A DNA stretch of 64,000 nucleotides, taken from Chondrosia reniformis (lineage: Eukaryota; Porifera; Demospongiae; Chondrillida; Chondrillidae). The notes under the pieces were generated by a model. That model was not told the DNA's origin and ran no database searches. It saw nothing but the letters and a program-made list of their open reading frames with translations. Shown here piece after piece: positions 5,918-51,330 of this stretch. The DNA lies in NCBI GenBank assembly GCA_947172415.1, contig OX359194.1, forward strand, positions 4,216,001-4,280,000, in the 5' to 3' direction. The translations under genes were made by a program, and so were the position numbers. The number at the start of each line of letters is the position of its first letter. The first letter of the stretch is position 1.

Positions 5918-6918
5918 TATATATATATATACATACATTTATAGCTTTTCCAAGGTATATAAATGAGTGAAAAACTGAATTTAGTTGCTTATGAAACTGC
6001 TTTTATGGTATGCACAGTGAAACCAGAACTGGCTGGCTGACAAATTAATTTTATTTACAAATTGCATGCTATCTTATTATTACATCCTTTTTATCCCATG
6101 CAGCAGGAATCATCCCAAAAAACAGAACATGAAAGAAACAGTAAGAAAAGTTGCACAGAACACAAGCCAACTAAGCCATCATTGATACCGTAAAGTGACA
6201 ATATTGCATGTATGTGTTTGTTTTATCTATAATTATGCAAGGCAATGTCTGGGCGCATAAATTTCTATTGCATTATTTAATTACAACATTTATAAAGCTC
6301 GACCACACCAACTTCAAGTACGTCACAATGAATTCCTTTTTCTAGCGTTGATAGTAAATTTGTTCGTAGAAGAATCGACGATAGTGGCAATAATGTTGAA
6401 GCAGCCATTTTTAAGTAAGTCGAAATCATCACTTCCATTTACTCTACAATATAGTTATTATTAGTCCAGAATCGTGCCGTCATGTGATTCTAGAAGGCTG
6501 TGAGTGGGGCAGCTGCTTAGAGGTGATGGGTGGGGCAGCTAGCTGCTCAAGCGGTGGTGCTATATAATCTTGATCGACAAGATCACATGCATAAAAAACG
6601 CTAATGTGTTTAGAGGCCAAATTTTTAATAATCACAGTAATTTTTTCACATGCATGCAATTGTACCTTTACGGTAAGTTGTTCTATTCTGTGTGACTGGG
6701 TTTTGTTGATAATCATTTCTATATATATTAGCTGCCTTTCTATTTTTTATTCCAGGCTATAGATGTCTGAAAAATGAACAATATACGGTACGTATGCATT
6801 CTAAGACTCCATTTGCATACATCTCAAATGAACAGACTGTCATGATAGGCACTATCTACAAACATAATTACACTCAGTCTGTCAATTCTTTGCTCTGTTT
6901 CTGGAGTCAAAGTAAATC
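5918..6918. other. unique sequence, no gene seen
   Basis: A short TA microsatellite (about 5918-5936) is followed by AT-rich unique DNA. Part of it may be the 5' flank or non-coding leader of the Helitron, but no terminus can be placed. Confidence 0.4.
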
Positions 6919-7150
6919 ACCCTGTGGCTGGGGTCGATTACCCTGTGGCTGGGGTTGCTCACCCTGTGGCTGGGGTCAATTACCCTGTGGCTGGGGTTGC
7001 TCACCCTGTGGCTGGGGTCAATTACCCTGTGGCTGGGGTTGCCCACCCTGTGGCTGGGGTTACTCACCCTGTGACTGGGGCTCTTCACCCTGTAGCTGGG
7101 ATCAATTACCCAGTAGCTGGGGTTGCTCACCCAATGCACATGGCTGGGTA
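6919..7150. repeat. 21-bp minisatellite (42-bp higher-order)
   Basis: Tandem repeats of CCCTGTGGCTGGGGT plus a 6-base variable part. Two variants (TCAATTA and TGCTCA types) alternate to give a 42-bp higher-order period. Since 21 is a multiple of 3, several frames on both strands stay open; these are shadows. The array lies just upstream of the Helitron reading frame. Confidence 0.9.
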
Positions 7151-7417
7151 GGTTTGCCCTGTTTAGTGTCATTTCCAAGTTATACATTTAACTTAACAGA
7201 CACAAATATTATTAACCATAAAGTAGTAGAGTACACTGTATTGAATGAAATAAGAATGGGCATTTTGTGTACCCTTTCTACTACTTATGGGTGTAACCAT
7301 GGGCATTACACTGCTAATTGGAAGGACTGTCATCCTAATTTAAGGAACTATTATTGTGAAATGGTGCAATTGTATAAGAAATGCATTCATCAAAATCATT
7401 TCTGACTTAGAAATTCA

Positions 7418-8014
7418 TTGGACCACTTGGCACGCAAAAGGAAACATTGTAAGCGTAACGTTTATTTAGCATGTGTGTTAAGCTTACTGTTATTGCTGGC
7501 CGGAGATGTTGAACTAAATCTGGGACCATATCACAATGATGAAATTTCCAGCCCTCCTGCATCGGCTGCTAAGTTGACTGATGATCAGAGTAAAAAAAAA
7601 AGAGCAGAGAGTGAAGCAAGGAGGTCTTCAAGACTATCAATGCTATCAACATATCAGAGAAAGTGTCTAGAAAATGAAACAGGAAAAGAATATTCTGCAA
7701 GGCTAGCAAAAATGTCTGAAAACCAAAGACTACGCCTACAGTGTGAAACAGAACAACAACGTTGTGTAAGACTGAGTAAATACTCTGAAAATCAAAAGAA
7801 GCGCTTAAAATCAGAAAGTGATGAGCAACATGAGGGGAGAGTTGCTAAACTTTCCGAAAATCAAAAGAAACGCTTAAAATCAGAAAGTGCTGAGCAACGT
7901 GAGGCCAGAGTTGCTACACTTTCCAAAAATCAAAAGAAACACTTAAAATCAGAAAGTGCTGAGCAACGTCAGGGTAGAGTTGCTAAGCTTTCTGAAAATC
8001 AAAAAAACGCTTAA
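7418..8014 (+). pseudogene. Helitron protein, N-terminal part (2A-like leader and 23-aa repeats)
   Basis: The frame follows an in-frame TGA (7403-7405) and has no ATG before about 7637; 7418 is a TTG, so the true start is unclear. It may lie upstream through the TGA or in a spliced exon. A basic segment is followed by a Leu-rich hydrophobic stretch and then GDVELNLGP (7502-7528). This resembles the 2A ribosome-skipping signature DxExNPGP, but the first Pro is Leu, which should abolish skipping. Then come 23-residue repeats (SENQKKRLKSESAEQREARV type), probably helical or coiled-coil and strongly basic. The frame breaks at the A7 run 8001-8007, one base short of the equivalent position in the preceding repeat, and continues in the next feature. 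Confidence 0.75.
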
Positions 8015-9021
8015 AATCAGAAAGTGCTGAGCAACGTGAGGCCAGAGTTGCTACACTTTCTGAGAATCAAAGGAAGCGTTTAAAGGCAGAAAGTGCTGAG
8101 CAACGTGAGGCCAGAGTTGCTACACTTTCTGAGAATCAAAGGAAGCGTTTAAAGGCAGAAAGTGCTGAGCAACATGAAGCCAGAGTTGCTACACTTCGTG
8201 AAAATCAAAAGAAGCGCTTAAAGTCACAAAGTATTGAAGAACGTCAAGCACGGCTTGCTACTCTCTCTGTAAATCGTAAGCAAAGGCTACTGTCAGAAAC
8301 AGATGAAAATCTGGAGTCAAGACTAAGTGGTATGAAGGAATGGAAAAAATCAAGAAGCGTAAAAGAATCTGAACAGGAGCGTACTCTAAGATTGAAGAGA
8401 GAAAAGGATCAAGCAAGATTAAGAATGCAGGCATTTAGAAAGCGAAAACAGGAATTGTTTACAAACCATGAGTCATTAGATGAATACCATGGAGTGCAAA
8501 AAACTGAAAATGTACAATGTGCCAGTGTTACTTCACAGGTAAATTTGGCTGTTGGAGATATAGATATTCTATCAAAAGAAGGACTACAAGGGGAACAAAT
8601 ATTGCTTTGCAACCATGCAGTTTTGTATGGTGCTGCTAAGCAAGATTGCATCTACCAAATGTCTGAAGAGAAAGACATGGAAGAGGATGCAGAAGTTACT
8701 GCTATTACAGTTTCAGAATCTGTTGTTACTGTACCAACACTTCAGATTGCATTGCCATCTAATCAAGGCAAAAAATTGAGAAATAATTTGCAAAAGTTTG
8801 AAAAAGTAATTCTGGAAGGGCCTACCCATAAATGTTATTCATGTGGAAAGTTGTGCTATAGACAGTTGGGTGCGACATTTAGCTTGGATGTTGCAGTTGA
8901 GTTACTTTCTACGATAAATGAATCAATTCAAGATAATATTAAAACTGTTTGGTTTTGTAACAGGTGTAAGAATTTGTTACAAAGAAAAAAATTCCAGCAG
9001 TGTCTCAGTTTAATAAAATGA
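8008..9021 (+). pseudogene. Helitron protein, middle part (repeats and zinc-finger-like region)
   Basis: This continues the upstream 23-residue repeats in a shifted frame, so the first ATG at 8332 is not a real start. About ten repeats span both parts. They are followed by a basic segment (KSRSVKESEQERTLRLKREK), an acidic linker, and a cysteine-rich region with CYSCGKLC and WFCNRCKN spaced as a zinc-binding pair. Such a Cys-rich segment precedes the Rep region in many animal Helitrons. A second A7 run (8985-8991) shifts the frame again: after a one-base correction the text reads on as KIPAVSQFNK into the next feature. The last ten or so codons before 9021 are therefore off-frame. Confidence 0.75.
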
Positions 9022-12000
9022 AAGTGGTGGACATCCCTTCAGTGTTAATGGGATTAAATACATTGGAGCAACGTTTGATTTCAAAGGCCACTGTTTTCAT
9101 GAAAATGGTGATATTACCAAGGGGTGGACAAAGGGCTGTCCGAGGGCAAGTGATTAACTTTCCTTCAAATGTTGACTCTGTCATTTCGGAACTCCCCCGT
9201 CTACCTAATGGGGAAGATATTGTTTACATTCAGCAGCCACAGTCACCAGAAAGTGAAGACAAAAGTAATGGGCCTGATAAAGCTTACCATTGCTGTCGGT
9301 ACTCTAGAGTTATGCAAGCATTGCAATGGCTAAAGCAGCATAACCCCTTGTATAGAGATGTCTCCATCAGCAACATATCAGAAGGTATGTTTGTTGATGG
9401 TGAAGAAGTCACCGAAGGTGAGAACAGCCGACAAGAAGAAAATCTTGAAATGGATGAAACTGGAATTGTCAGGTTGGATACTCTCCAGCCTAATGTAGTT
9501 GCTGTTGAATTGGTACAAGAACGTAAATCAATTGAACACCAGGTTCATGAGTTACAAAGAATAACAGCTACACCATTGAGCATATTTGAGGATCGGGATG
9601 ATCTTGAAGCAATGGCTTTTCCAACTTTATATCCTGATGGTGAAAATAGCTTTGGTAAAATCAGAGAGACCAAGGTTTCACCTCTACAGTATTTCCAAGC
9701 GAGATTGCTGAGTGCTGATACAAGATGGGCCTGTCATCCTTCATACATCTTTTGGGCATGCAACATTGTGGAAGCACTGAAGTTGCAGAGCAGCATTTCC
9801 ATCGCTATGAGAATGCGGTCTTTCAGAGTAAGCCACTTTGATAATAAGAATGACAATGAAACTGATGATAAGCGCTTACTCACAGCTGGATTGCTTAGAG
9901 GACCATTGGATGACAATCCCGAATTGCGTGAAAACTGTTACAGTTTCATGAAAGACATTCGTGGTACGCAAGCTTATTGGAACTCAGTGAAGATCCAATT
10001 ATTTGCTATGTTTCGCACTCTTGGTCCTCCCACATTTTTTATTACACTGAGTGCTGATGATAATAACTGGGTAGACTTGATGATAGTTCTAAGCAAAAGT
10101 CGGGGTCAAAATCTCTCAGAGGAAGAAGCAGCCAACCTGTCATCCAGTGAAAAAAGAAACCTGATGAGGTCCAATCCGGTGGTTACAGCTAGGCATTTTG
10201 CCCATCGTTTTCAGTCCTTTGTCAAGGAGGTCATTAAAGGATCTGGACAACCCATTGGCGAGGTGGTTGATTACTTTTGGAGAATTGAATTTCAGTTGAG
10301 GGGTTCCCCACATGTCCATTCTATGTGGTGGATAAAGGATGCTCCCAACCTAGACACAACAGTTGGAAGGCAGATTGCCCCACAGTACATTGATCGGTAT
10401 ATATCTGTGAACATACCAAATGAAGGTAGCAAGGATGAACAACTGCATTCTTTGGTAATGCACGTGCAGCAACACCATCATACAGTCACTTGCAAAAAGG
10501 CAACAAACAGACGTCCAAATGTGAAGGATTGTCGATTTGACTTTCCTCAGCCTCTCTCAGAGGTTACAAGGCTGAAAAACAATGACGATCCTGGAAACAA
10601 GTCCAGGTTTTATGTTCTGAAACGATCAGAAGGGGAGGAAAACTGCAATCCATACAATGCACACCTTCTAAAGGTTTGGAAGGCTAATATGGATATACAG
10701 TTGATTGGGTCTGTTTATGGGACAGCAGCATATGTTTGTTCATATATGTGCAAATCGGAAAGTGAGGAGGTTAGGAAAGCAATCCGGGATGCACTGGAAA
10801 GCTTGCCTCCTCGGGCTACAGCAAGAAAGCGCCTCTCAAAGGTTGGCAACACCATGTTGACACACCGTGAATTGAGTGCCCAGGAGGCAGCATATCGATT
10901 ATGTCATTTGCCTCTCAAGGAAAACTCCAGAAAAGTGGTTTTTGTTAACACCACCAAGCCAGAGAAGAGAACACGCTTGCTAAAATGTAAAGCTGAATTG
11001 CTTCAATTGGAGGATGATTCCACTGACATTTTTGCTCCTGGCATCTTTGATAGATATGCCTCACGACCAGACTCACAACACTTTGCCAACATGACGTTGG
11101 CTCACTTTGCCGTCTGGTATGATGTGGATGGATGTGATGGTTCCGTTGGAAGTGGATCAGGGCAGCCTCGTAGCCAACTGCAAAACAACTTGGGATGGGT
11201 GCGCCTTCGAAGGAAGCAAGCTTGCCTTCGAATACCAGTACAGACAGTAGAAAGTCATGGTGATGACTATTACTACAGTTTGCTGCTTCTTTACATTCCT
11301 TGGAGGAAGGAACCCGTGGATCTCCTACTACACCACTCTTCAGCAATGGAGGCTTTCATTGCAAGGGAGGGAGAAATGGTTGTTCTTAATGCAGAGAACC
11401 ACACTTTTGCAGACGAGGTGCAGAGGGCTGTTGTACAATTGCAAGCCTTGAAAGACGATGCTTATCAGGATGCAGTTGCACCTATGACACTCCAAGTTCA
11501 TCGAGAGGATGCTGCCAAACCTCCTGTAGAGGCTGAGGGTGGATTGATGAACCCTGAGAATTTTGCTGATCCTCATTACTTTCAGGATGACACTGAGGGT
11601 GCAGGAAATTTAGATGAAGGGATTATAAATGATGACGACAATGCCATTGGGGCAATGATTAGATGCACCCTTCCTGATGAGGTCTTTCGGCAACTAGTTG
11701 CAAACCTCAATACACAACAACGGGTTCCATTTGACATAGTTGTTCAGTACACTCGAGAATTACATAAGTACCAAATGAAGCTACGCCCAAAAGCTCCAGA
11801 AGCTTTTCATCTGTTTGTGACAGGTGGAGCGGGCACTGGTAAATCACACGTAATTAGAGCAATTAAAGAGCATTTGGAGCGCTCGGTCTCCAGTGGGCCA
11901 GACAAGCATGCATGCATCTTGATGGCACCTACAGGGGTTGCAGCTTTTAACGTTGGAGGCCTAACCATCCACAGAGCCCTGAGACTGCAAGTAGAGCATG

Positions 12001-14282
12001 GCAAGACGGCCCATCAGTTACAACTGCATGCTTTAGCATTGCATGATTTGAGAAAATTGTGGCCAGGGGTGCACACTATCATAATTGATGAAATCAGTAT
12101 GGTTTCATACCAGATATTGAAGTCTGTACACAGCCGTCTGTGTGAAATTTATGGCAATGATGAAATATTTGGTGGTTTGAATGTGATAGCTGTGGGAGAC
12201 TTATACCAGCTGTCGCCTGTGAATGGGAGCCATGTTTTCAGTAAGAAACCTGGTCGTTCATCAGGCCGATTGTCTTCACACCTTTGGAGAGATTTCTTCA
12301 AGGTCATTGAATTAGAAGTTAATATGCGGCAGCAAAAAGATGCTACCTTTTCAGATATCCTTAATCGTGTCAGAATAGGCAACCACACGGTTGAAGATGT
12401 TAAAGTTTTGCACACACAATTGCTTTCCAGTGGATCTGTGGATTTACTGGCTCCCCCATTTGATACTGCCCTCAGATTGTATCCTCGTTCAGTGGATGTA
12501 GAAGGATATAATGAAACCCAGATTACATGTTTGGCAAAAGACCATCAACTGTATAGAATTGATGCAGAACATGCAATTCTACAGAGTCGAGGACAATTCT
12601 ATGCCCATGTTAATTACAATGAGGTTCCTGAACGCCTCATTCCACAGGATGACAAAGATTGTGCTGCATTACCTCGTCAATTGAAGTTAGCAATTGGTGC
12701 CAGAGTGATGCTTCGCCGTAACATCAACTGTGGTGATGGCCTTGTGAATGGTGCCAGAGGTATAATTGTGGGATTCAAATGGCCAGGAAAAACAAATAAT
12801 CAGAGAAAACCTGGTGAAATGCCTACAGAGGTGTATGTCAAATTCTTTGATCCAAATGTGGGAAGCCTCTCAAAGGTGACAATTGCCTCTGGTGATCAGG
12901 AAGTTGTGCCGATTGCAGCAATTTCAGCATGCTTCTATGGAAAGGAAGGCACACTCTTGCAGAGAACACAGATTCCTTTGATTCTCTGCTGGGCAGCCAC
13001 TGTGCATAAAGTGCAAGGTTTGTCACTTGATGCAGCAGTCATGGATCTTGGTAAGAACGTTTTTGAACCTGGTATGGCCTATGTAGCTCTCAGTCGCGTG
13101 CGTACTCTAAATGGAGTGGCCCTACTGAACTTTGAGCCACAAAAGATGACAGCAAACAAGAGAGTTCATGAGGAAATGGCAAGGCTGCGACAACAGTCTA
13201 CTTGTGGTAGTGTATTGCAAAGTGACGGGCAGACATCAGATCTATTGGTTCAGAACTGCAAACGTCCTGACAAATCAAACAGTGAAAACAGGGCCAATCC
13301 TTTGGTGGAGGACAAAAGTGCTGCATTGCATAGTGAGAAGCAGACATTGTCTACTAAAAATAGGGATGATGAGTTACAAGGCAAGCAGAAGCCTATAGTA
13401 GTCCACATGGAAGTCAGTCAATCTGTACACTTAAATCCGATTGTTAATGTTGATGCACAGCTGGTGTCCTCACTGAAAACGGCACTAGAAGTGATAGTAA
13501 ATGAAAATAGTCCAACTGTTGAGTCGATAACAAAATGGGCAAACTCTCACAGCCATGAACTAGACTGTATTTTAAAAGTGATAAATATACCTTGCAGGGC
13601 TACATTTAGCAACTGTCATCTAGTAGATATTTTGGAAAAAGAAAAGATCTTTGCAGCTGTTACTTCTCAATATGTCCCAGTGTGCACTAAAGGAGATGGT
13701 AATTGCATGTATAACATGCTTTCCCTATCACTTTCTGGTACTGAGCAGTATATGTGGCACTTGAGGTTGTTGACTGCTTATAGTATAATTGTACATCGAG
13801 AACGCATGATAAAAGTCATACAACCAGTTGCAGGAATACATATACCGCCAGGGGAACGAGAGCCTCTTGCAGTTGCTAAGGCAGCAGAGAGACAATGGTT
13901 GGAAATCCTTTGCAGTTCAATCCACGATAAAGCATGGGGTGACCAATTTCATTTGTATGCCCTAGCTCTGATTTTAAAAAGGCCTATCTGGTTGTATGGT
14001 GTGATGTGCAACAGAAGTCTCTATCATGACGGGGAAAGGCTCCAACCAATTAAGCATGACATTACACAAGCTGAATTAAAAGATCTTTTTAAAATGAGAG
14101 ATAAGCGATTAAATAACAATTATTGCTATTGTCCTGACTCAGTCCTGGAAGAAAAAGTGCCACTTTTAGGTTTTTTGGATTCCTCTCATTTCACTGCCTT
14201 ACTTCCAGTAGAATCTGCAAAGATTTCAACAGATTTTGCTCCATTTGCCACCTTTTTGTCACAGTGTGGTCCTGAAGAATGA
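9000..14282 (+). CDS. Helitron Rep-helicase-OTU protein (main part)
   Basis: There are 1760 open codons; 9000 is a GTG in the middle of the protein, not a true start. A Helitron-like N-terminal region leads to the HUH endonuclease: GSPHVHSMWW, with His438 and His440, then AAYVCSYMCK with Tyr578 and Tyr582, the two-tyrosine motif used for rolling-circle cleavage and strand transfer. The PIF1-family helicase follows: Walker A GGAGTGKS (942-949), Walker B DEISM (1030), VGDLYQLSP, and the C-terminal HKVQGLSLD and YVALSRV motifs. A Ser/Lys-rich linker leads to an OTU-type cysteine-protease domain with GDGNC (Cys1569) and SHF (His1730). All catalytic residues I looked for are present, so this part appears intact. 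It should act in the nucleus on transposon DNA; the OTU role in these elements is unknown. Confidence 0.9.
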   Translation: MSQFNKMKVVDIPSVLMGLNTLEQRLISKATVFMKMVILPRGGQRAVRGQVINFPSNVDSVISELPRLPNGEDIVYIQQPQSPESEDKSNGPDKAYHCCRYSRVMQALQWLKQHNPLYRDVSISNISEGMFVDGEEVTEGENSRQEENLEMDETGIVRLDTLQPNVVAVELVQERKSIEHQVHELQRITATPLSIFEDRDDLEAMAFPTLYPDGENSFGKIRETKVSPLQYFQARLLSADTRWACHPSYIFWACNIVEALKLQSSISIAMRMRSFRVSHFDNKNDNETDDKRLLTAGLLRGPLDDNPELRENCYSFMKDIRGTQAYWNSVKIQLFAMFRTLGPPTFFITLSADDNNWVDLMIVLSKSRGQNLSEEEAANLSSSEKRNLMRSNPVVTARHFAHRFQSFVKEVIKGSGQPIGEVVDYFWRIEFQLRGSPHVHSMWWIKDAPNLDTTVGRQIAPQYIDRYISVNIPNEGSKDEQLHSLVMHVQQHHHTVTCKKATNRRPNVKDCRFDFPQPLSEVTRLKNNDDPGNKSRFYVLKRSEGEENCNPYNAHLLKVWKANMDIQLIGSVYGTAAYVCSYMCKSESEEVRKAIRDALESLPPRATARKRLSKVGNTMLTHRELSAQEAAYRLCHLPLKENSRKVVFVNTTKPEKRTRLLKCKAELLQLEDDSTDIFAPGIFDRYASRPDSQHFANMTLAHFAVWYDVDGCDGSVGSGSGQPRSQLQNNLGWVRLRRKQACLRIPVQTVESHGDDYYYSLLLLYIPWRKEPVDLLLHHSSAMEAFIAREGEMVVLNAENHTFADEVQRAVVQLQALKDDAYQDAVAPMTLQVHREDAAKPPVEAEGGLMNPENFADPHYFQDDTEGAGNLDEGIINDDDNAIGAMIRCTLPDEVFRQLVANLNTQQRVPFDIVVQYTRELHKYQMKLRPKAPEAFHLFVTGGAGTGKSHVIRAIKEHLERSVSSGPDKHACILMAPTGVAAFNVGGLTIHRALRLQVEHGKTAHQLQLHALALHDLRKLWPGVHTIIIDEISMVSYQILKSVHSRLCEIYGNDEIFGGLNVIAVGDLYQLSPVNGSHVFSKKPGRSSGRLSSHLWRDFFKVIELEVNMRQQKDATFSDILNRVRIGNHTVEDVKVLHTQLLSSGSVDLLAPPFDTALRLYPRSVDVEGYNETQITCLAKDHQLYRIDAEHAILQSRGQFYAHVNYNEVPERLIPQDDKDCAALPRQLKLAIGARVMLRRNINCGDGLVNGARGIIVGFKWPGKTNNQRKPGEMPTEVYVKFFDPNVGSLSKVTIASGDQEVVPIAAISACFYGKEGTLLQRTQIPLILCWAATVHKVQGLSLDAAVMDLGKNVFEPGMAYVALSRVRTLNGVALLNFEPQKMTANKRVHEEMARLRQQSTCGSVLQSDGQTSDLLVQNCKRPDKSNSENRANPLVEDKSAALHSEKQTLSTKNRDDELQGKQKPIVVHMEVSQSVHLNPIVNVDAQLVSSLKTALEVIVNENSPTVESITKWANSHSHELDCILKVINIPCRATFSNCHLVDILEKEKIFAAVTSQYVPVCTKGDGNCMYNMLSLSLSGTEQYMWHLRLLTAYSIIVHRERMIKVIQPVAGIHIPPGEREPLAVAKAAERQWLEILCSSIHDKAWGDQFHLYALALILKRPIWLYGVMCNRSLYHDGERLQPIKHDITQAELKDLFKMRDKRLNNNYCYCPDSVLEEKVPLLGFLDSSHFTALLPVESAKISTDFAPFATFLSQCGPEE

Positions 14283-17289: not shown

Positions 17290-17357
17290 CCAGCGAGAAC
17301 ATACATCCAGTTACAAGTACATACAACCAGAACATACAACTAGTTACTAGTACATAC
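17290..17357 (+). repeat. 13-bp satellite remnant
   Basis: A short run of ACTAGT-containing units between the TIR transposon and the next insertion. Confidence 0.8.
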
Positions 17358-17605
17358 CAAGGATTTACAGAAGATCAAGATAAAGAAAAAGACAAAGACT
17401 CCCAGGATAACTGAAGAAGGGTGGAATTCCCAGAAACGGCTGTCTGACCCAGTGGAGAAGAAGGTGAAAGAAGGGAAAAGAAGGAAGAAAAGACTACTGT
17501 ATCTTCATCTAAAGCTCTCTTTAGGTTTAGTTCCCCTATAGGCTCTTTTTACAGAATAGGCATATAGCATGTAGGAAAATGGTATCTTAGATTTTTCATA
17601 CAATT
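17358..17605 (+). mobile_element. possible PLE-end fragment in satellite
   Basis: About 250 bp of non-satellite sequence. It contains CTGAAGAAGGG, then CCCAGAAAC and CTGTCTGACC, an order resembling the hammerhead-like core found in PLE terminal repeats elsewhere in this window. The closing stem I is poor and there is no coding part. The origin is tentative. Confidence 0.3.
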
Positions 17606-18498
17606 AGTACAGACAACTTGTACATATAACTAGTACATAGCACAATTACACACAACTAGTACATACAACTAGTATATACAACTAGTACATACTTCTAGTA
17701 CATACAACAAGTACATACAAGTAGTACATACAACTAGTTACTACTACATTTAACTAGTACCTAGAACTAGTTACTACAACTATATAGTAAATATAAGTAA
17801 TACATACAACAATTACACACAATTAGTACATAAAACTAGTAACTACAACAAGTAAATATAACTAGTACATACAAAAATTACACACAACTGGTACATACAA
17901 GTAATACATGTAACTCATGCAACTAGTTCAAACTACAAGTAATACGTATAGCTACATACAACTAGTTCAAACTACTAGTATATAAAACTAGTAAAAACAA
18001 CTAGTACACACAGCTTATACAAAAAACTAGTACATACAACTAGTACATACAACTAGTCACTAGTATGTACACCTAGTATGTACAACTAGTACATTCAACA
18101 AGTACATACAACTAGCATATACAAATAGAACATTCAACTAGTGCATTCATCAAGTACATACAACTAGTACATACAACTTGTAACTTCATCTAGTAAATAT
18201 AACTATTTCATACACAAATTTCACACAACTAGTACATACAAGTAGTACATATAATTACATACAACCAGTTCAAACAACTAGTACAAACCATTAGTACATA
18301 CAACTACTACACACAACTAGTGCATATATCTAGTTACTAGTACATACAACTAGTACATACAATTAGTAACTACAACTAGTAAATATAACTAGTTCATACA
18401 CAAATTTCACACAACTAGTACATACAAGTAGTACATATAATTACATACAACCAGTTCTAAACAACTAGTACATTCAACAATTTCACACAACTAGTAAA
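17606..18498 (+). repeat. 13-bp satellite, forward orientation
   Basis: The same 13-bp family; units vary mainly at the ACATACA part. No gene. Confidence 0.95.
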
Positions 18499-18815
18499 TA
18501 CAACTAGTTCATATAATTACTTAAAACTAGTACATTCAACTGGTATTTACAATTAGTAAATACAGATTGTTACTACTACCTACACCTAGAAACTACAACT
18601 AGTTCATACAACTATTACATATAACTAGTACATGCAACTACTTATTAGTACATACAACTAGTACATACAATTAGTAACTCCAACTAGTAAATATAACTAC
18701 TACATACAGCTAGTAAAAACAACTAGTACATACAACTAGTAAATACAACTAGTACATACACCTAGTACATAAAACTAGTTCATACAACTAGTTCATATAA
18801 CTAGTACATGCAACT
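18499..18815 (+). repeat. 317-bp direct repeat, left of LINE (candidate TSD)
   Basis: A stretch of satellite from TACAACTAGTTCATATAATT to ATGCAACT, ending exactly where the LINE begins. The copy at 23172-23488 has the same length with about four substitutions and no gaps, and begins exactly where the LINE ends. Confidence 0.85.
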
Positions 18816-18937
18816 GTCGTGGGAATTGGAGGCTGTGGTTCCGAGCTGACAAGAGGATGGGTATTGTCCAGTTCAACCCCCCGACGGAGCAGGGTGCTTA
18901 GCCCCTCATGTGGCATCCTGTGGCTAAATCAGCCTCC
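18816..18937 (+). ncRNA. HDV-like self-cleaving ribozyme at LINE 5' end
   Basis: The order of pairings matches the hepatitis-delta-type nested double pseudoknot. P1: 18816-18823 with 18878-18885 (one mismatch). P2: 18828-18835 with 18930-18937 (8 bp, perfect). P3: 18838-18840 with 18875-18877. P1.1: CC 18841-18842 with GG 18886-18887. P4: 18890-18897 with 18913-18920 (8 bp, one G-U). The joining strand between P4 and P2 is TGGCTAAAT, with C18924 a candidate catalytic cytosine. Cleavage would fall just before G18816, exactly at the target-repeat border. Such ribozymes are known to free the 5' end of R2 and related LINE transcripts. The fold was worked out by eye. Confidence 0.8.
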
Positions 18938-19131
18938 CTGTCAGTATGGGCTAACCCCCCGTCTGGCAGCTACACTGGGTTACGTTACGTCATGAGAATA
19001 ACAATTTTCAAGACAGGCTGTGGCCTAGGTGCACCGGTGGAGAAGAAAACCCTGGGTCAACCAGAATAGGCGATTCCACTGGTGCCTCACAGGTAGATGT
19101 ACCTGAATGTAATAACCCTTCTTCGGTCCCC

Positions 19132-19791
19132 GTGACGGGCCAACCAGCCCTATGGACCGAGGAAATGGTTAGGGCACTAATTGATTGCTTTGAGCGATCT
19201 GAACCCAAAAGAGGTGGCTATCAGAAGCGTTTAGAGCGGGAATGGCTGAGCAAATACCCACATTTGCCTCAGACCGGTCGAACCCTTGCCTTCCAAGCCA
19301 AAAGGAGCTTGGTAGGAGACGGAGTACTGCAAGTAACGGGTAGCCGAGATTTAGATTTGGTTAATGATGCACCGCAAGGTGCCTCTAGAAGGAGAAGGAT
19401 CCAAGGGGTGATCTGGAACCTTCAGAGGGATAATATCCTCATGGAGCTCTACCGAGAAAGAAAGCCCATGGAAAAGGGGTATGCCGAGCGGTTGTACCAG
19501 GCTTGGAATGCTGCAATGCCAGACCATAAAACCACAAAGGTAGCGCTAACTACAAGACTTAGTAGAATCCGAAGAGGTCAAGGTCTCTCAAGACTAAACC
19601 TTGTGGAACCTGACTCTTGTGGTGTAGCCACCCTAACTGGGACTGTGGAGGAAGGTGTGGGAGCCAAGGGACAGGAGGAGCTTCACCAAGTTCAGGCTGG
19701 GACTGAACAAAATGGTGAGCAGCCTGCAGTCCTGTTGAAACTCCTGCACATGATCATCCCAGACCCAGGACAAGTGGCAATGATAATCTGA
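19132..19791 (+). CDS. LINE ORF1 protein with two Myb/SANT-like repeats
   Basis: 219 codons, counted from a GTG; the frame is open further upstream without an ATG and the first ATG (19165) falls inside the first domain, so the true start is unresolved. Residues 7-60 (LWTEEMVRALIDCF, GYQKRLEREW, LAFQAKRSL) and 94-148 (IWNLQRDNILMELY, GYAERLYQAW, LTTRLSRIRRG) look like two copies of one tryptophan-based helix-turn-helix module of the Myb/SANT-like kind. In related LINEs such a module sits at the start of the RT protein and probably binds DNA at the target. Here it forms a separate ORF ahead of the RT. Its stop overlaps the ORF2 start as TGATG, suggesting coupled translation. The C-terminal 70 residues are low complexity. 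Confidence 0.75.
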   Translation: MTGQPALWTEEMVRALIDCFERSEPKRGGYQKRLEREWLSKYPHLPQTGRTLAFQAKRSLVGDGVLQVTGSRDLDLVNDAPQGASRRRRIQGVIWNLQRDNILMELYRERKPMEKGYAERLYQAWNAAMPDHKTTKVALTTRLSRIRRGQGLSRLNLVEPDSCGVATLTGTVEEGVGAKGQEELHQVQAGTEQNGEQPAVLLKLLHMIIPDPGQVAMII

Positions 19792-22700
19792 TGCAACTTT
19801 TAGGCAAAGCAAAAGATGCCTGTCTCCGAAAGAAACCTGGAGATTTCTCTGGAAGAAAACCCTGTGGGGCAGTGCGGTTCAACCATGTTGATACGGCACT
19901 GCTTCAGGAGGCCAATGATTGGGTGGAGAAAGAGTGGCAGGAAGGCCCTAGGTCGGCCTGGCACCTGAACTGCTTGGTCTACTCTGTTGCTATGGCTGTG
20001 AGGGGAAAAACAACCAACGAATCGCAGCCATGCAACCAGGGAAGGAAATCAGATAATCAGAAGGGAAGTAAGAGACAGGAAGGTCACATAAGTGACAGGA
20101 AGGCCAAGGGCCTTAGGTTTAGAAGACTGCTTGCCTGGTTGGATGTGGAAATAGCGCGTCAACAGAATAATAATCCTATGACCAAACGCCAGAAAGTACT
20201 CCGAAGAAAGCTTAGGAGGGAGTTCCATTCATTAAACCTGAATGTGCTGATCAGAGCTCGGGAACAGACATTGGGGAAACTCAGGGTCTGGACCCTACAA
20301 GAGCGAAGATCAGCTGAACGCAGGAAATTCCAGGAACAAAACCACCTTTGGAATACCCAAAGGAAGTTCCGGATGAATGGCAATGTTCCAACCTCCAATG
20401 AAGCTCCCTCAATTGAGGTAGTAAGAGACTTTTGGACAAAGATTGTAGGTACTGTTGGTAAGGTCAACAAAGACGACCCAGGGGTGAAAGAATGGCTAAA
20501 GGAAACCAAAAAGAGGGTGGGTAGAACCTCCTCTGAAGGTCCTGATAGCATTGATGAGACCAAAATGAGGAAGGCCTTGAAAAAGGCAAAAAGCTGGTCT
20601 GCCCCTGGGCCGGATGGCATCCACACTTTTTGGTGGAAAGCACTCCCCTCTGCACAGTCTGCCTTGGCAGATGTACTACGGAGGGTGGTGAGCGGAGATC
20701 TGTCAGTCCCAGACTGGCTTACAAGGGGTCGCACTCTACTCATCCCCAAAAAGGGTGACCCGAAAAGTGCGGCCAACTACCGACCTATTGCGTGTCTCAA
20801 CACAATGTACAAGGCTGTCACAGCATACATTGCGTCAGAACTACTCACTTACACCTACACTAATGATCTTTTGCCTATGGCCCAAAGGGCCATGAGGAAA
20901 GGGAGGTGGGGCTGTGTGGACTGTCTACTGCTGGATCAATCAATCGGTCTAGACGCCAAAATTATGGGTAAGCCACATAGTGTGGCATGGATCGATTATG
21001 AGAAGGCATATGACAGAGTCCCTCACAAGTGGGTGATGAAGGTGCTAAAAACCATCAAGTGCCCAGATTGGATCAGGAGGTCTATAGAGCTCTTCTCCAA
21101 ACACTGGGCTACTGCGCTTGAGTTGAGGACTGCGGGGAAGGTGGTTAGGAGCACCCCTGTTAAATATAACAGGGGACTCTTCCAAGGAGACTCCTTATCG
21201 CCACTCCTCTTTTGTCTGGCCATAGCTCCCATATCCCAAATTCTTAACAGAACCAAGGGATATGCCCTCTGGCATAATGGGGAAAGGAACACCATGTCAC
21301 ACTTGTTGTACATGGATGACCTTAAGATATATGCTGGAGGGCCTGATAAACTCAGGGAAGCCATGGAATGTGTGGAGAAAACCTCAAATGCCATTGGCAT
21401 GAGGTTTGGAGTGAGAAAGTGTGGAACAGCTCACATGCAAAAGGGGAAAGTTCTGGCTGGCCCAGACAACCCTGAACGCAGTGAAGAATCCATAAGGAGC
21501 CTTGAAAAAGGTACTACTTATAAGTACCTAGGGCTAGAACAACTGTTTGAGGTAGATGACAGCAAGGTCAAAGCTTGCTTGATCAACGAATTGAGGAGGA
21601 GACTCCACAAGGTGTGGGGCTCTTCCCTCAATGGTAAGAATGCTGCAGAAGCCTCTAACATGTTGTGTGCCTCTCTATTGAGATACTCTTACCCAGTTTT
21701 GAAGTGGACTCAAAGTGAGCTTCCAAAACTGGACCGAATGGTGAGAAAGATCATGAGAAAGTACCAGTGTCATCACTATAACTCTGCCATTGAAAGAGTG
21801 AATTTGCCTCGCTCTCAAAGTGGTAGAGGGCTCTGTAGTTTTCCTTTGGATCACGACAGGGCTGTTGTGAATCTGGCAAGATACCTCCATACTGCCAATG
21901 ATCCACTCATAGCTGTGGTGGTTAAACACCAAAAGTGGCTAGAGTGCTCAAAGCAGAGGAGGACTGTCTTGAAAGAAGCCAGATTGATACTGAGAAGCCA
22001 CGGAATAGAACTAGAACCGGAAATGTGGCTGAAGACAGATCCCTCACAAAATAGTGTAAGAGAATGGAGGAGAGTGGCACGTGAGCTCCGGGAGGCTCAG
22101 ACTGAAAAGTTAAAAAGTAACCTAGCCGAAAAGTCTCACCAGGGCTCATACCACAGACAAGTCACAAATAGGGAGTCTTATGTGTGGCTTTCTGAGGGGA
22201 GACTCAGACCTCAAACTGAGGCTCTGATTCTCGCAGCCCAAGATGATGTGCTGCACACTAGGTGGTACCAAAATAGGATTCTGAAGAATTCTAGCCTCCT
22301 AATGTGCAGAGAATGTGGCAAGGCTATGGAAACGGTCAAACACATACTAAACATGTGTGAGCCCAAGGGATTTTCTCTCTACAAAGAGAGACATGACCGG
22401 GCAATACTGATAGTGTTGTGGAGACTGTTGAAAGAATATGGATTCAGGCAGGAAGAGCCCTGGTACAAACTAGAAGCAAAACCAGTCTATGAGAATAGGT
22501 CTGTCAAAATCTTGTGGGATCCTAGTATCCCTACAGATGATGAAATGACAGAAAGAAGGCCAGACTTAGTGGTTGAGGATCGGCTAAGTAAGTCCATCTT
22601 CATTATTGAGATGTCAGTTCCTACTGACAGCAATATTAATGGAAGATGGCAAGAGAAGTTCCAAAAGTACCAGAAGCTGGCAGCTGATATGAGGAAACAA

Positions 22701-22907
22701 TTTAGGGGCTACCGAATTAAGGTAGTCCCGATGATAATTGGTGCTTTGGGGACAGTGGACACGCTCCTGGAAGACCTTAGGGGAATTCCAAAGCTGTCAA
22801 AAAGTGCAGTAGAAGTGATGAGAGCCATGCAGAGAACTGTTCTCTGTTCGGCTGTGAGGATATTGAGGCGACATCTATCTGTTGAGGGATTGGGGCCTGG
22901 ACGATAA
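19791..22907 (+). CDS. LINE ORF2: reverse transcriptase with restriction-like endonuclease
   Basis: An intact protein of 1038 residues. The first 200 or so residues are basic and lack the C2H2 fingers typical of single-ORF R2 proteins. RT fingers begin at about 270 (SWSAPGPDGIHTFWWK, RPIACLNTMYK). Palm motif A is IDYEKAYDRVPH with Asp402, followed by GLFQGDSLSPLLFCL, and motif C is YMDD (507-510). The C-terminal part has a CCHC knuckle (Cys839, Cys842, His851, Cys856) and the restriction-like endonuclease signature RRPD (Asp925), then IIEMSVPTDSN and VVPMIIGALG. In this LINE group the endonuclease nicks the target and the RT primes first-strand synthesis there. The start at 19791 shares its A with the ORF1 stop. 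No disabling change is visible. Confidence 0.93.
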   Translation: MQLLGKAKDACLRKKPGDFSGRKPCGAVRFNHVDTALLQEANDWVEKEWQEGPRSAWHLNCLVYSVAMAVRGKTTNESQPCNQGRKSDNQKGSKRQEGHISDRKAKGLRFRRLLAWLDVEIARQQNNNPMTKRQKVLRRKLRREFHSLNLNVLIRAREQTLGKLRVWTLQERRSAERRKFQEQNHLWNTQRKFRMNGNVPTSNEAPSIEVVRDFWTKIVGTVGKVNKDDPGVKEWLKETKKRVGRTSSEGPDSIDETKMRKALKKAKSWSAPGPDGIHTFWWKALPSAQSALADVLRRVVSGDLSVPDWLTRGRTLLIPKKGDPKSAANYRPIACLNTMYKAVTAYIASELLTYTYTNDLLPMAQRAMRKGRWGCVDCLLLDQSIGLDAKIMGKPHSVAWIDYEKAYDRVPHKWVMKVLKTIKCPDWIRRSIELFSKHWATALELRTAGKVVRSTPVKYNRGLFQGDSLSPLLFCLAIAPISQILNRTKGYALWHNGERNTMSHLLYMDDLKIYAGGPDKLREAMECVEKTSNAIGMRFGVRKCGTAHMQKGKVLAGPDNPERSEESIRSLEKGTTYKYLGLEQLFEVDDSKVKACLINELRRRLHKVWGSSLNGKNAAEASNMLCASLLRYSYPVLKWTQSELPKLDRMVRKIMRKYQCHHYNSAIERVNLPRSQSGRGLCSFPLDHDRAVVNLARYLHTANDPLIAVVVKHQKWLECSKQRRTVLKEARLILRSHGIELEPEMWLKTDPSQNSVREWRRVARELREAQTEKLKSNLAEKSHQGSYHRQVTNRESYVWLSEGRLRPQTEALILAAQDDVLHTRWYQNRILKNSSLLMCRECGKAMETVKHILNMCEPKGFSLYKERHDRAILIVLWRLLKEYGFRQEEPWYKLEAKPVYENRSVKILWDPSIPTDDEMTERRPDLVVEDRLSKSIFIIEMSVPTDSNINGRWQEKFQKYQKLAADMRKQFRGYRIKVVPMIIGALGTVDTLLEDLRGIPKLSKSAVEVMRAMQRTVLCSAVRILRRHLSVEGLGPGR

Positions 22908-23171
22908 GTAGTCCTGTCCCAGTCCTTGCCTGTCGACCTCTGGAAAGCAGTGGTGGATTGGTGTATGGAGGTACTCCCTCCTATTATGACAGTCAACTTT
23001 GGCCCGACGTGCACCCGTCTGCTGCTGTCGGAAGGAGGAAAAGCCGAGGCTTCTGGCTAAAAACCCAAAGAAAGGAAAACATAACTGACTGAGGGTTGTC
23101 CAAGCCAGATACTCCTTGCCTTAGTACACTAAGGCAAGAAGTAACAAGGTTCTCCGTTAAGGCTTTTGTTT

Positions 23172-23488
23172 TACAACTAGTTCATATAATTACTTAAAAC
23201 TAGTACATTCAACTGGTATATACAATTAGTAAATACAGATTGTTACTACTACCTACACCTAGAAACTACAACTAGTTCATACAACTATTACATATAACTA
23301 GTACATGCAACTACTTATTAGTACATACAACTAGTACATACAATTAGTAACTCCAACTAGTAAATATAACTACTACATACAGCTAGTAAAAACAGCTATT
23401 ACATACAACTAGTAAATACAACTAGTACATACACCTAGTACCTAAAACTAGTTCATACAACTAGTTCATATAACTAGTACATGCAACT
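23172..23488 (+). repeat. 317-bp direct repeat, right of LINE (candidate TSD)
   Basis: Copy of 18499-18815, in direct orientation, starting at the LINE's 3' end. Beyond 23488 the sequence (AATGACTAGTACATTCC) is ordinary satellite with no counterpart at the left. Confidence 0.85.
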
Positions 23489-23785
23489 AATGACTAGTAC
23501 ATTCCACTACTACATACAATTAGTACATACAACAAGGAAATACATCTAGTGCATACAACTAGTTCTTATAACTAATGCATAAACTACATACTAGAACACC
23601 TATACAACAAGTTCATACAAGTAGTACATAAAACTAGTGCATTCAACTAGTGCATAGAACTAGTACATACAACTAGTACATTCAAGAGTACATACAAGTA
23701 GTACATACAACTAGTTACTACTACATACAACTAATACATACAACTAGTAACTACAAATGGTAATTAAAATTAGTAGATACAAAAA
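23489..23785 (+). repeat. 13-bp satellite, forward orientation
   Basis: Satellite up to the tail cassette. Its last units (AATTAAAATTAGTAGATACA) recur directly before the second tail cassette at 40415. Confidence 0.9.
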
Positions 23786-24158
23786 CAAGGAGTTCGAGTT
23801 TAAGAAACTCGTGGGGCCCTAGGCGACCCTGAGTAAACTTGAAATACTTGACTGGTTCTCATGGATATCTGGTAAATTGATTTCAGATTGACTCTTGTTG
23901 GCCGTCAATTTTTGCACAAGCTTTATGTTACATTGTTTTAGTTAGGATGGTTTTAAGTCCATTTTGTTTGTTCAATGTTCTACCCAAAGGAAGAGAAAGC
24001 TAGAAAACGAAAGCTACCCGAGCATCCGCCATTGTTTAACAGATATATAAATGTATGTATTTACAAAACTACAAACAGGAAGCCATACGTTAACATAATT
24101 TCCGAAAACAATATAGGGGCCCTTGCGGCGTCCCAATTAGAGACAACTAGAAAATACA
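23786..24158 (+). repeat. satellite junction cassette (tail plus head), complete copy
   Basis: Begins with a palindrome-ended block (CAAGGAGTTCGAGTTT, inverted as AAACTTGAAATACTTG, ending 23850) around CTCGTGGGGCCC. About 210 bp of unique sequence follows, and then the head part (24059-24152), after which the satellite restarts. The first half recurs at 40415-40627 and the second half at 15238-15329. So the same borders flank separate satellite blocks. Confidence 0.75.
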
Positions 24159-24163
24159 ACTAG
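23975..24163 (+). other. short open frame in the junction cassette
   Basis: 62 codons from an ATT-TTG context, encoding a fairly normal-looking sequence (KRKLPEHPPLFNRYINVCIY, then IGALAASQLETTR) that stops just inside the satellite. The related head copy at 15238 has a 10-bp deletion that breaks this frame. I do not recognise the protein. It could be a captured gene fragment or chance. No promoter or partner exon was seen. Confidence 0.25.
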
Positions 24164-25267
24164 CACATACAAATAGTACATACAACTAGTACATACAACT
24201 AGTATATACAACTAGATCATATAACTAGTACATACAGCTAGTATATACTTACTGTTAGCGCATATAAATAGTACATACAACTAGTACATATAACTAGTAT
24301 ATTCAACAATTTCACACAACTAGTAAATTCAACTAGTGAATATAACTAGTTACTAGTACATACAACTAGTGCATACAACTAGTACATATAACTAGTACAT
24401 ATACCTAGTGCATACAACTAGTACATATAACTAGTACATATAGCTAGCACATACAATGAGTACATATAACTAGTACATACATCAATTTCACACAACTAGT
24501 ACATAAAACTAATATATACATGGTACTAGTACATACAACTAGTACATACATCTAGGTACTAGTACATACAACTAGTACATATAACTAATACATACAACAA
24601 TTTCACACAACTAGCACATAAAACTAGTACATATTATTACATACAACTAGTACATACAACTAGTACATACAATTAGTAAATACAGATTGTTACTAATACA
24701 TACACCTGGTACATACAACTAGTTCATACAACTGTTATATATAACCAGTACATGCAACTACTTACTAGTACTTACAACTAGTACGTACAATTAGGACATA
24801 CAACTACTACATACAACAAGTAGATACAACTAGTCCCTACAACTAGTAAATACAGATTGTTCCTAGTTCTTACACCTAGTATATACATCTGGTAGATACA
24901 ATTATTACATACAACCAGAACATACAACTTTTACATTAATCTAGTAACTACAACTACCAAATATAACTAGTATATAAAATTATGCACAACTATAACATAC
25001 CAGTAGTACCTATAACTACTTACAACTAGTACATACATCTAGTATAAAAAACTAGTACATAGAACTAGTTACTGCTACATACAACTAGTACATACAACTA
25101 GTAACTACAACTAGTAAATATAAGCAATACATACAACAATTACACACAATTAGTACATACAATTAGTTCATATAAATAGTACATAAAACTAGTAAATACA
25201 ACAAGTAAATACATCTAGTTACTAGTACATACGAAAAATACACACAACTAGGACAAACAACTAGTAT
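24159..25267 (+). repeat. 13-bp satellite, forward orientation
   Basis: Starts after the head cassette. From about 24655 to 25100 it carries a higher-order block repeated at 27560-28110 and 30290-30690. Confidence 0.95.
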
Positions 25268-36495: not shown

Positions 36496-39400
36496 CATCA
36501 CATACATCTAGTTACTAGTACATAATAAAAGTAACTTAAACTAGTAAATATAACTAGTGCTTACAAAAAATACACACAACTAGTACATACATGTAGTACA
36601 TACAACTAAATACAACTAATGCAAACAACTAATACATACAACTAGTATATACTTAAAGTTACTAGTACATATAACTAGTACATACAACTTCTGCCTACAA
36701 CTAGTACATAAAACTAGTACTCAGAACAAGTACATACAACTATTACATGCAACTACCTACTAGAACATACAACTAGCACATAAAACTAGTACAGATAAGT
36801 ACATACAACTAGTACATATAACTAGTATATACAACTAGTATATACATACAATTAGTACACAACTAGTACATACATCTAGTAAATGCAACTATATATTACA
36901 TACAACTGGTACTACAACTAGGACATAGAACTAGTACATACAAATAGTACATACAGCTAGTATATAAAACTAGGACATAGAACAATTACACACAACTAGT
37001 ATATAAATAAACCTATTTACATAAAACTACATACAACAAGTGTGTGCAACAAGTTACTAGTACATCCAACTAGTACATCAAACTAGTACATACAACTAGT
37101 ACATATAACTAGTTACTAGTACATACAACTAGTACAAAGAAATAGTCCATACAACTACTACACATAATTAGTACATACATCAATTTCATAAAACTAGTAC
37201 ATAAAACTAATACTTAGAACTAGTACATAAAATTAGTACATACAACTAGTTACTAGTATAATCCAACTAGTGCATACAGCTAGTACATCCAACTAGTACA
37301 TATAACTAGTACACACAGCCAGTCCCTCCAACTAGTACATATAACTAGTACATATAACAATTTCACACAACTAGTAAATACAACTAGTACATACAACAAG
37401 TACATACAATATTTAAATAAAGATTGTTACCAGTACATACATTTAGTACATATAACTAGTTCATACAAGTATTACGTATAATAGTTGCTAGTACATATAA
37501 ATAGTACATACAACTAGTACATACAACTAGTACATACAACTAGTACATACAAAAAAACACAACTAGTACGTATAAGTAGTACATAAAATTACATACAAGT
37601 TGTTCAAAAAACTAGTACATACAACTAGGACATACAGCTTGTACATTCAACTAGTACAAAAAACAATTTTACACAACTAGTTCATACAATTAGTATATAT
37701 AATTACAAACAACTAGTACAAACAACAAGTACATACAACTAGTTCGTACAACTGTTACATATAATAGTTGCTAGTACATATAACTAGTACATACAACTAG
37801 TACATAGAACTAGTACATAGAACTAGTAAATACAGATTGTTACAAATACTTATACCTAGTACATACAACTAGTATATGCAACTATTTACTAGTACGTAGA
37901 ACAAGTATGTAAAATTATTACACACAACTAATACATATAACTAGTACATACAATTAGTACATACAACTAGTATATACAACTATTACATATAACTAGTTCA
38001 TACATTAATTGCATACGCTAGTATACACAACAAGTACATATATTTAACTATATACAACTAGTACATACAACTAGTAAATACAACAAGTAGAGACAACTGG
38101 TACATAAAATTTGGTATATACTACCAGTACATACAACTATGTGGTACTTACAACTAGTACTACAACTAGGACATAGTACTAGTACATATAACCTGTATAT
38201 ATAACTAGTACATACAAATAGTACATACAAATAGTCCATACAAGGAGTACATAAAACTAATCACTTCTATACAGAACTAGTACACAAAACTGGTAACTGC
38301 AACTAGTAATTATACTTAGTAGATACAAATATTACACACACCTAGTACATTCAACTAGTACATACAACTAGTACATACAGCTAGTTCATACAACTAGTAC
38401 ATATGACTGGTACATACAACTAAATAATAGTAGATACAACTAGTACATACAACTAGTACAAACAACTAGTACATACAACTAGTACATACAGCTAGTACAT
38501 ACAACTAGTACATTTAACTAGTACATACAAAAATTACACACCACTAGTACATACAACTGGTATGTATAAATACATACAACTAGTGCATACATTTAGTCTA
38601 TACAACTAATAAATACAGATTGTTACTAGTACATACAATTAGTACATACCACTGGTACAACAGCTAGTACATACAACTAGTAGATATAACTAGTACATAC
38701 AACTACTGACCAGAAGATATATACAACTAGTACATTCAACAAGTACATATGACTAGTACATACAAAGAGTACATAGAAATAGTACATACAACTAGTAACT
38801 ACATCTAGTAAATATAACTAGTTCATACAAAAATTTCACACAACTAGTACATACAACTAGTACATATAACTAGTACATACAACAATTTCACACAACTAGT
38901 ATATATAACTAGTACATACAACAACTTCACACAAGTAGTACATACAACTAGTACATATAATAAATTAAAACTAGTATATACATTCAACTGGTATTTACAA
39001 TTTGTAAATACAGATTGTTACTAGTACCTACACCTAGTACCTACAACTCCTTCATACAACTATTACATATAACTAGTACATGCAATTACGTACTAGTATT
39101 TACAACTATTACATACCATTAGTACATACAACTACTACATACAACTAGTGCATATATCTAGTTACTAGTACATACAACTAGTACATACAATTAGTAACTA
39201 CAACTAGTAAATATAACTAGTTCATGCACAAATTCCACACAACTAGTACATACAAGTAGTACATATAATTACATACACCTAGTTCACACAACTAGTACAT
39301 TCACCAATTTCACACAACTAGTACATACAACTAGTACATATAATTACTTAAAACTAGTACATTCAACTGGTACATATAACTAGTACATAGAACAATTGCA

Positions 39401-40414
39401 CACAACTTGTATATATAACTAGTGCATACAACAATATCACACAACTAGTACATACAACTAGTACATTTTATTAATTAAAACTAGTATATACATTCAACTG
39501 GTATATACAATTAGTAAATACAGATTGTTACTAGTACCTACACCTAGTACCTACAACTCCTTCATACAACTGTTACATATAACAAGTACATGCAACTACG
39601 TACTAGTACTTGCAACTATTAAATACCATTAGTACATACAACTACTACAAAATAGTGCATATATCTAGTTACTAGTACATACAACTAGTACATATAATTA
39701 GTAACTACAACTAGTAAATATAACTAGTTTATACACAAATTTCACACAACTAGTACATACAAGTAGTACATATAATTACATACAACTAGTTTAAACAACT
39801 AGTACATTCAACAATTTCACACAACTAGTACATACAACTAGTACATATAATAACTTAAAACTAGTACATTCAACTGGTATATACAATTAGTAAATACAGA
39901 TTGTTACTAGTACCTACACCAGGTACCTACAACTAGTTCATACAACTATTACATTTAACTAGTACTTGCAACTACTTATTAGTGCTTACAATTAGTATAT
40001 ACTATTAGTATATACAACTACTACATACAACTAGTTCATATATCTAGTTACTAGTACATACAACTAGTAAATACAACTAGTACATACAACTAGTTCATAT
40101 AACTAGTACATGCAATGAATAACTAGTAGATACCACTACTACTTACAATTAGTACACACAACTAGTACATACATCTAGTACATACAACTAGTTCATATAA
40201 CCAATGCAAAAACTACATACTAGAACACCTATACAACAAGTTCGTACAACTAGTACATAAAACTAGTACATTCAATTAGTACATAGACCTAGTACATAGA
40301 ACTAGTACATTCAAAGAGGACATACAAGTAGTACATACAACTAGTTACTACTACATACAACTAATACATACACTAGTAACTACAAATGGGAATTAAAATT
40401 AGTAGATACAACAA
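36496..40414 (+). repeat. 13-bp satellite, forward orientation
   Basis: Continuous satellite. Blocks around 38985-39130, 39480-39620 and 39870-40000 are versions of the same higher-order segment, which is also related to the 317-bp repeat flanking the LINE. Confidence 0.94.
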
Positions 40415-49432: not shown

Positions 49433-49851
49433 TTAAATTGTCTCCAGGCTTGATGTAACACAATGCCTTGATCTAAATTCATTCTCACCTGACTCTTCTG
49501 GATCCTGATGGCTTCTTTGACCCTTCACCTTTGCCAGTGGGTTTCCCTGTCTGTAATCTTGGACTTGTCCCAAGCAATTGAGTGGCCAGTCTTGAGGGAG
49601 TGAACAGCTATACCGTTGTTCACATCCCCCCTCCTGACTGCTCGCTTGTGTTCTGCCAATCTCTCTTTCAGGGTCCTTCCAATTCCACCAATGTAGACTG
49701 CAGAACACTCAGAGCAAGGAATTAGGTAAACTACACCCTTGAAATCCATAGGTGGTTGTGGCTGTTTTGGGTTGGATAAAATGGTACTCAGTGATCTCTG
49801 CTTGGAGAAAATGATCTGGATACCCATTTTTCTACAGCTTTTATCGATCAT
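49433..49851 (-). pseudogene. PLE GIY-YIG endonuclease region
   Basis: Minus-strand text VVYLIPCSECSAVYIG, then RTLKERLAEHKRAVRR, is a GIY-YIG nuclease core as found at the C-terminus of Penelope polyproteins, with paired Cys before the YIG part. The frame breaks after HWQR (about 49525) and resumes in another frame to about 49433. Upstream it joins the RT frame at 49848-49851. The domain would nick target DNA for insertion. The second Tyr motif reads YIGGIGRT where the copy at 60484 has YIGETGRA. Confidence 0.85.
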
Positions 49852-51200: not shown

Positions 51201-51330
51201 TGAAAAAAGAAAAACAGTAGACATCTTATATATGTAATAGAATAAGGATTCCTTATAACTGCGTCGAACTTATCTTTGGGATGGTACATCCTTCGACTTT
51301 TGAGCGTTTAAAAACGCAGTTGGTTTCTTT

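Follow-up and report, generated by a model that had tools for sequence, protein, structure and literature searches.

A full-length sponge LINE lies between 317-bp direct repeats that are most likely a target-site duplication

In a 64,000-nucleotide stretch of the Chondrosia reniformis genome (hereafter the window), a LINE of 4.36 kb is enclosed by two nearly identical satellite segments. Pairwise alignment of these segments, 18499-18815 and 23172-23488, gives 317 bp each, ungapped, with 4 mismatches (98.7% identity), which bears out a first-pass annotation, made from the letters alone, of two gap-free blocks of equal length with about four differences. The blocks were also said to meet the first and last bases of the LINE: they do adjoin 18816 on the 5′ side and 23171 on the 3′ side, but position 23171 is not the usual 3′ end of this family. 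Related higher-order blocks that had been noticed near 39-40 kb are present at 38.55-40.41 kb. The features of the locus are as follows:

17598..18498, + strand: upstream flank (17598-18815 is 93.4% identical to the LINE-free paralogue L003, and 17291-18815 is 96.4% identical to L005)
18499..18815, + strand: first copy (317 bp) of the duplicated satellite segment, upstream of the LINE (alignment; single copy in LINE-free L003 and in the best joined-query match)
18816..23171, + strand: LINE copy, full-length, 4356 bp, without the terminal TTCAAGTA usual in the family (alignment, copy comparison)
18955..19791, + strand: 278-aa open frame, N-terminal region (resembles the N-terminal portion of P0003, a relative of 1210 aa)
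19719..22907, + strand: 1062-aa open frame, reverse transcriptase with candidate C-terminal zinc knuckle and RPD motif (RVT_1 at residues 342-606, E 4.4e-30)
23172..23179, + strand: TACAACTA, with which the downstream block begins at the 3′ junction (target sequence)
23172..23488, + strand: second copy (317 bp) of this segment, downstream of the LINE (alignment)
23489..24982, + strand: downstream flank (23172-24982 is 90.5% identical to LINE-free L003)
38552..40410, + strand: satellite blocks without a LINE, 73-85% identical to the 317-bp unit (alignment)

An assembly error at this locus is unlikely because the mean HiFi read, about 12.9 kb as calculated from a table in the excerpted part of PMC12181767, exceeds the whole 5-kb structure. 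By eye, the window also contains Helitron-type helicase-like frames with an OTU-like end (6713-14282), two overlapping frames resembling a pogo/Tigger-type transposase (43430-44754), and a minus-strand frame that resembles a Penelope-like reverse transcriptase, with the motif RYVDDTF (49848-50555). At about 50000-52000, a 13-bp satellite (ACTAGT, commonest spacing 13) flips orientation around a satellite-free stretch.

The reverse transcriptase of the 1062-aa frame matches R2 chains in the PDB at ~1e-21 and is therefore related to R2-type proteins, and the 278-aa frame returned no Pfam match. The C-terminal part of the longer frame contains CRECGKAMETVKHILNMC, which we take to be a CCHC zinc knuckle, and RRPD...IIEM, in which RPD is presumably the PD-type motif found in LINEs with a restriction-like endonuclease; this is a candidate assignment, and a Pfam profile search of the frame matched no nuclease profile. 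By motif likeness the element thus looks like a LINE of the restriction-like-endonuclease type. The genome searched comprised 117,379,552 bases in 15 contigs, and the assembly is described in the excerpt of PMC12181767 as 14 chromosomes plus the mitochondrion. In this genome the best 40 of 273 candidate matches to the 5′ kb of the LINE are 97-100% identical, and the best 40 of 426 candidates for the 3′ kb are 99-100% identical; this young jumping gene has many close copies. Among the open-licence papers listed as matches, none dealt with this LINE or its duplications.

The 3′ end of the family is well defined by comparison of 30 three-prime loci, of which 27 continue with TTCAAG and 24 carry TTCAAGTA, with L041 differing by one base before TTCAAGTA. 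The TTCAAG continuation is missing at three loci: L036, L037 and the window copy. At the window copy the LINE is followed by TACAACTA, which agrees with TTCAAGTA in 6 of 8 letters. The 3′ flanks at the 30 loci are satellite or other DNA, with a single case of rDNA at L042 (C8:7450674-7454673), where the sequence runs from TTCAAGTA into what we take to be the end of an 18S gene and then into 5.8S and 28S (Rfam). The L042 tail AAGTA resembles the 18S target, and the 5′ junction of this rDNA copy on C8 is an N stretch. Locus L039 (C3:1607245-1611244) begins with the same 16 bases as L042, and despite this Rfam found no rRNA there.

Places that carry related sequence and no LINE were used as evidence on the empty site; these are paralogues, not alleles. 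In L003 (C6:4147904-4151219), both flanks are present around a single 317-bp block, and there is no LINE. A joined LINE-free query of 513 nt, in which the block is joined to 93 bp from the upstream side and 103 bp from the downstream side, has a contiguous match at C6:4149311-4149823 that is 98% identical over all 513 nt (1-513) and contains a single block. More than 10 further places among the matches listed align at 82-90% over nearly the full length, the blocks at 38552..40410 give a contiguous match at 86% (C6:4255741-4256220), and no tandem 317-bp block occurs among the LINE-free places listed at 90% or more. Because the LINE-free paralogues hold one copy of the 317-bp segment, the duplication goes with the LINE. 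The two blocks share the variant C at position 78, which is absent in 6 of 6 paralogues compared, an argument that rests on one site; of the 4 differences between them, 3 are private to one block and 1 is also found in L007. Contiguous LINE-free paralogues were likewise found for repeats of 138, 136, 135 and 303 bp at other copies of the LINE, those of the 303-bp repeat lying in arrays with a 390-bp unit.

Of 45 copies of the LINE attempted, 32 were readable at both ends and had 998 bp or more of flanking sequence on either side; 13 were dropped with one end outside the fetched pieces. The sample consists of the most similar copies and is not random, and 11 of the 40 best five-prime matches were left out. 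A long repeat was scored when an alignment of at least 60 bp and at least 92% identity ended at both LINE borders, with up to 18 bases of shared tail allowed on the 3′ side and up to 6 on the 5′ side. Of the 32 own flank pairs, 7 have such a repeat, and of 992 mismatched pairs none does; the alignments measure 317, 138, 144, 303, 1213, ~510-513 and 270 bp. Identity is 98.7-100% in five of the seven, the ~510-513-bp (96.9%) and 270-bp (92.2%) repeats being weaker. All of these copies are full-length or nearly so and start at LINE base 1, or at base 5 in the 1213-bp case. The 138-bp blocks are 100% alike and their nearest LINE-free paralogue is 97% identical over 261 nt, others listed reaching at most 94%; the 1213-bp blocks are 99.75% alike, and elsewhere in that interval repeats are mostly 72-85% similar, with short pieces up to ~92%. 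At the 303-bp locus the blocks are 99.3% alike and neighbouring repeats 78-89%, some of its relatives being arrays with the 390-bp unit.

Short duplications, which the first-pass annotation had counted as evidence against a long target-site duplication should other copies carry them, are the commonest class among the 32 copies: exact repeats of 9-16 bp flank 14 of them, and 39 of 992 mismatched pairs share at least 9 bp. One further copy has a 12-bp repeat plus 8 extra bases. The same LINE is thus accompanied by repeats of 9-16, 45, 135, 138, 303 and 1213 bp, so the earlier suggestion of nicks about 317 bp apart does not hold as a fixed spacing, and we rejected a fixed 317-bp stagger. No duplication was found in 9 of the 32 copies, and four of these nine (C8:2834891, C1:4214587, C12:3230363 and C3:4479107), when searched for a duplication of more than about 1 kb, have no distant partner of their 3′ flank near their own 5′ end among the matches listed. 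Re-examination of 12 of the 13 dropped copies as possibly truncated gave a readable 5′ junction in 8, internal rearrangement in 2 and a junction off the piece in 2; in 3 of the 8 readable copies the 5′ flank was extended before scoring. Anchored exact repeats of 7, 8, 9, 10 and 13 bp occur in 5 of these 8, the shortest being near chance in satellite; three show no repeat and none of the 8 has a long one. At C9:3428499 and C3:4479107, about 20 extra bases of the LINE's own 5′ end stand directly before the LINE start, as if copied twice. In the 13-bp satellite, scanning by eye for the usual target motif some 12 bp ahead of the 5′ junction did not help to tell recombination from a long duplication.

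Judged by motif density, both flanks are non-satellite in 7 of the 32 copies, comprising four with exact short repeats (two of them in related sequence), the one with 12 bp plus extra bases, and two with long repeats. The related pair, C7:3141774 and C2:5386291, share their insertion base within similar non-satellite DNA (the 5′ flanks are 92% identical over 388 bp), and each has an 11-bp repeat. At C6:2215286, a nested, truncated LINE fragment of 434 bp with a 45-bp repeat is followed by a full LINE with a 135-bp repeat, both repeats beginning at the same base, both 100% identical and both set against the contiguous LINE-free paralogue L100; a second LINE, besides the full one, ends exactly at the shared 3′ site, and the 144-bp alignment scored at this locus is the 135-bp repeat plus shared LINE tail. 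An eighth copy, C6:4922304, has a 136-bp repeat at 98.5% with 49 bp of satellite-like sequence between repeat and LINE, perhaps a transduced 5′ leader, and its LINE-free paralogues are contiguous at 97%. C6:4922304 lies in non-satellite DNA that by eye is gene-like, with repeated fibronectin-type exons.

LINE-free single-copy paralogues, the shared private variant and the recurrence of long repeats (7 of 32 own flank pairs, 0 of 992 mismatched ones) all tie the duplication to insertion, as had been proposed. We consider the 317-bp block most likely a target-site duplication, and we give a probability of about 0.65 to target-primed insertion with a second-strand step that normally falls about 12 bp away and sometimes far away, as at the window copy. 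One satellite unit would receive a LINE of the restriction-like-endonuclease type through target-primed reverse transcription, the 3′ end of the LINE RNA (...CAAGUA) pairing loosely with the target TACAACTA at the first nick, where cDNA synthesis would start; at the window copy, 6 of 8 letters would have sufficed for pairing of the RNA tail. Second-strand cleavage or 5′ joining would usually take place about 9-16 bp downstream and leave a short duplication. In about one-fifth of the sampled copies this second cleavage or joining, through a distant nick or distant joining, may instead have occurred from 135 to more than 1,200 bp downstream, and fill-in would then duplicate the whole stretch in between. 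The distance between the two steps at the window copy would be 317 bp.

Several observations sit less easily with target-primed insertion at variable distance. The 9 of 32 copies that lack a duplication, among them the four without a listed partner, are unexplained by pure duplication; the ~510-513-bp and 270-bp repeats could be array similarity; and the window flanks are mosaic, the upstream flank being closest to L005 and the downstream flank matching only L003 above 85%, which would also suit unit exchange. The identity of the 138-bp and of the 1213-bp blocks, higher than that of the related sequences compared with them, speaks against array similarity at these two loci. Unit exchange is possible at the 317-, 303- and 135-bp loci because their nearest paralogues (98, 98-99 and 100% identical, respectively) are about as close as the copies are to each other.

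The best surviving alternative, though an unlikely one, is recombination between two LINE insertions in the same or a paralogous unit, such that the two junctions derive from different insertions and the segment between them is duplicated. Many near-identical copies exist, most of those sampled lie in satellite, recombinants could be among the copies without a duplication, and recombination with the adjacent truncated LINE ending at the shared 3′ site at C6:2215286 would give the same structure. However, two nearby insertions would be required at each locus, 2 of the 7 non-satellite copies also carry long repeats, the LINE neighbouring C6:4124730 would yield a duplication of ~1.7 kb rather than 1213 bp, and the perfect identity of the 138-bp copies exceeds the 97% of their nearest paralogue. 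Ranked next, and likewise improbable, is a repeat-unit junction, in which the 317-bp blocks are two different array units and the LINE replaced or deleted the DNA between them. Array paralogues up to 98% identical, the different closest relatives of the two flanks and the 390-bp-unit arrays related to the 303-bp locus agree with such a junction, whereas the unit next upstream of the window LINE is only 75% similar, the private variant is common to both blocks, and the long class is seen outside satellite too. Satellites readily duplicate and more distant LINE-free arrays hold overlapping blocks ~245-280 bp apart at 80-86% (C6:4047461/4047732, C6:4431753/4431998 and C6:4490132/4490408), but a pre-existing tandem 317-bp duplication that received the LINE exactly at its joint is very improbable, as the first-pass annotation had also leaned, since no such pair occurs among the listed LINE-free matches of at least 90% and several loci, differing in repeat length, would all need an insertion exactly at a joint.

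Two further candidates were set aside. A check for NER loss as a cause, covering XPA and XPC domains, found XPA_C (C3:8351349-8351474) and XPC BHD_3 (C4:5619032-5619250) above cut-offs, leaving simple absence of XPA and XPC unsupported. Reintegration of an extrachromosomal circle was rejected by reasoning alone, as exact borders are not generally expected from it.

Second-strand cutting and joining is the least understood step of LINE insertion, and a natural family with many young copies, whose full-length inserts carry both short and very long duplications, supplies a data set on this step outside repair-deficient lines. It also suggests one way in which LINEs could assemble higher-order satellite repeats and copy parts of genes. 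As a wider and more tentative proposal, to which we give somewhat less than even odds, full-length germline copies of this LINE may, through a second-strand step that is loosely coupled, make duplications either of about 12 bp or of hundreds to a thousand bp, with the long events seeding satellite higher-order units; if true, each long event would be a LINE-made segmental duplication able to seed such units in the satellite that the element has colonised.

The 317-bp repeat is neither unique nor a record. What looks unusual, for a LINE of the restriction-endonuclease type, is how often long duplications flank its full-length germline copies. The L1 endonuclease is of the APE type, unlike the restriction-like-endonuclease type to which the sponge LINE appears to belong. 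In the excerpts of PMC5223499, human L1 makes duplications from a few bp to several kb, those above 1 kb mostly in repair-deficient cells, as well as target-site deletions, and variable placement of the second nick is proposed; the record length once suggested for the window repeat is thus exceeded by published L1 cases, as it is by the 1213 bp within its own family. The sponge LINE is like L1, so described, in that one element yields duplications from a few bp to hundreds or thousands of bp. L1 duplications above 100 bp make up 57-91% in XPA-, XPC- or XPD-deficient cells and 3 of 9 in complemented cells, and are stated never to exceed 10% in HeLa (PMC5223499, excerpts); unlike this strongest setting for L1, in which excision repair is missing, the sponge genome has XPA and XPC domains. 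In HeLa, according to the excerpt of PMC2912911, all 6 full-length L1 inserts have 10-17 bp and the extreme duplications are 5′-truncated, whereas the long sponge duplications flank full-length germline copies and 0 of the 8 truncated copies with a readable 5′ junction have one (45 bp at the 434-bp fragment).

The excerpts consulted describe rotifer R9, reported from 28S rRNA genes, as an R2-group element (PMC5035012) with a 126-bp duplication (as cited in PMC6895275). The sponge LINE resembles R9 in duplicating more than 100 bp; it differs from the 126-bp stagger of R9 in that the 32 copies show repeats between 9 and 1213 bp long, and from the 28S rRNA specificity in its many targets, one locus of which runs from the 18S end through 5.8S to 28S. 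R8 and R4 make duplications of 9 and 13 bp in the excerpt of PMC6895275, and the target of R8 is given as 18S rRNA genes in that of PMC5035012. Unlike R8, so far as described there, the sampled sponge copies lie mostly in satellite or other non-rDNA sequence; like R8 and R4, the LINE usually makes a short repeat of their length, and like R8 it has one copy whose 3′ end is joined to a putative 18S end.
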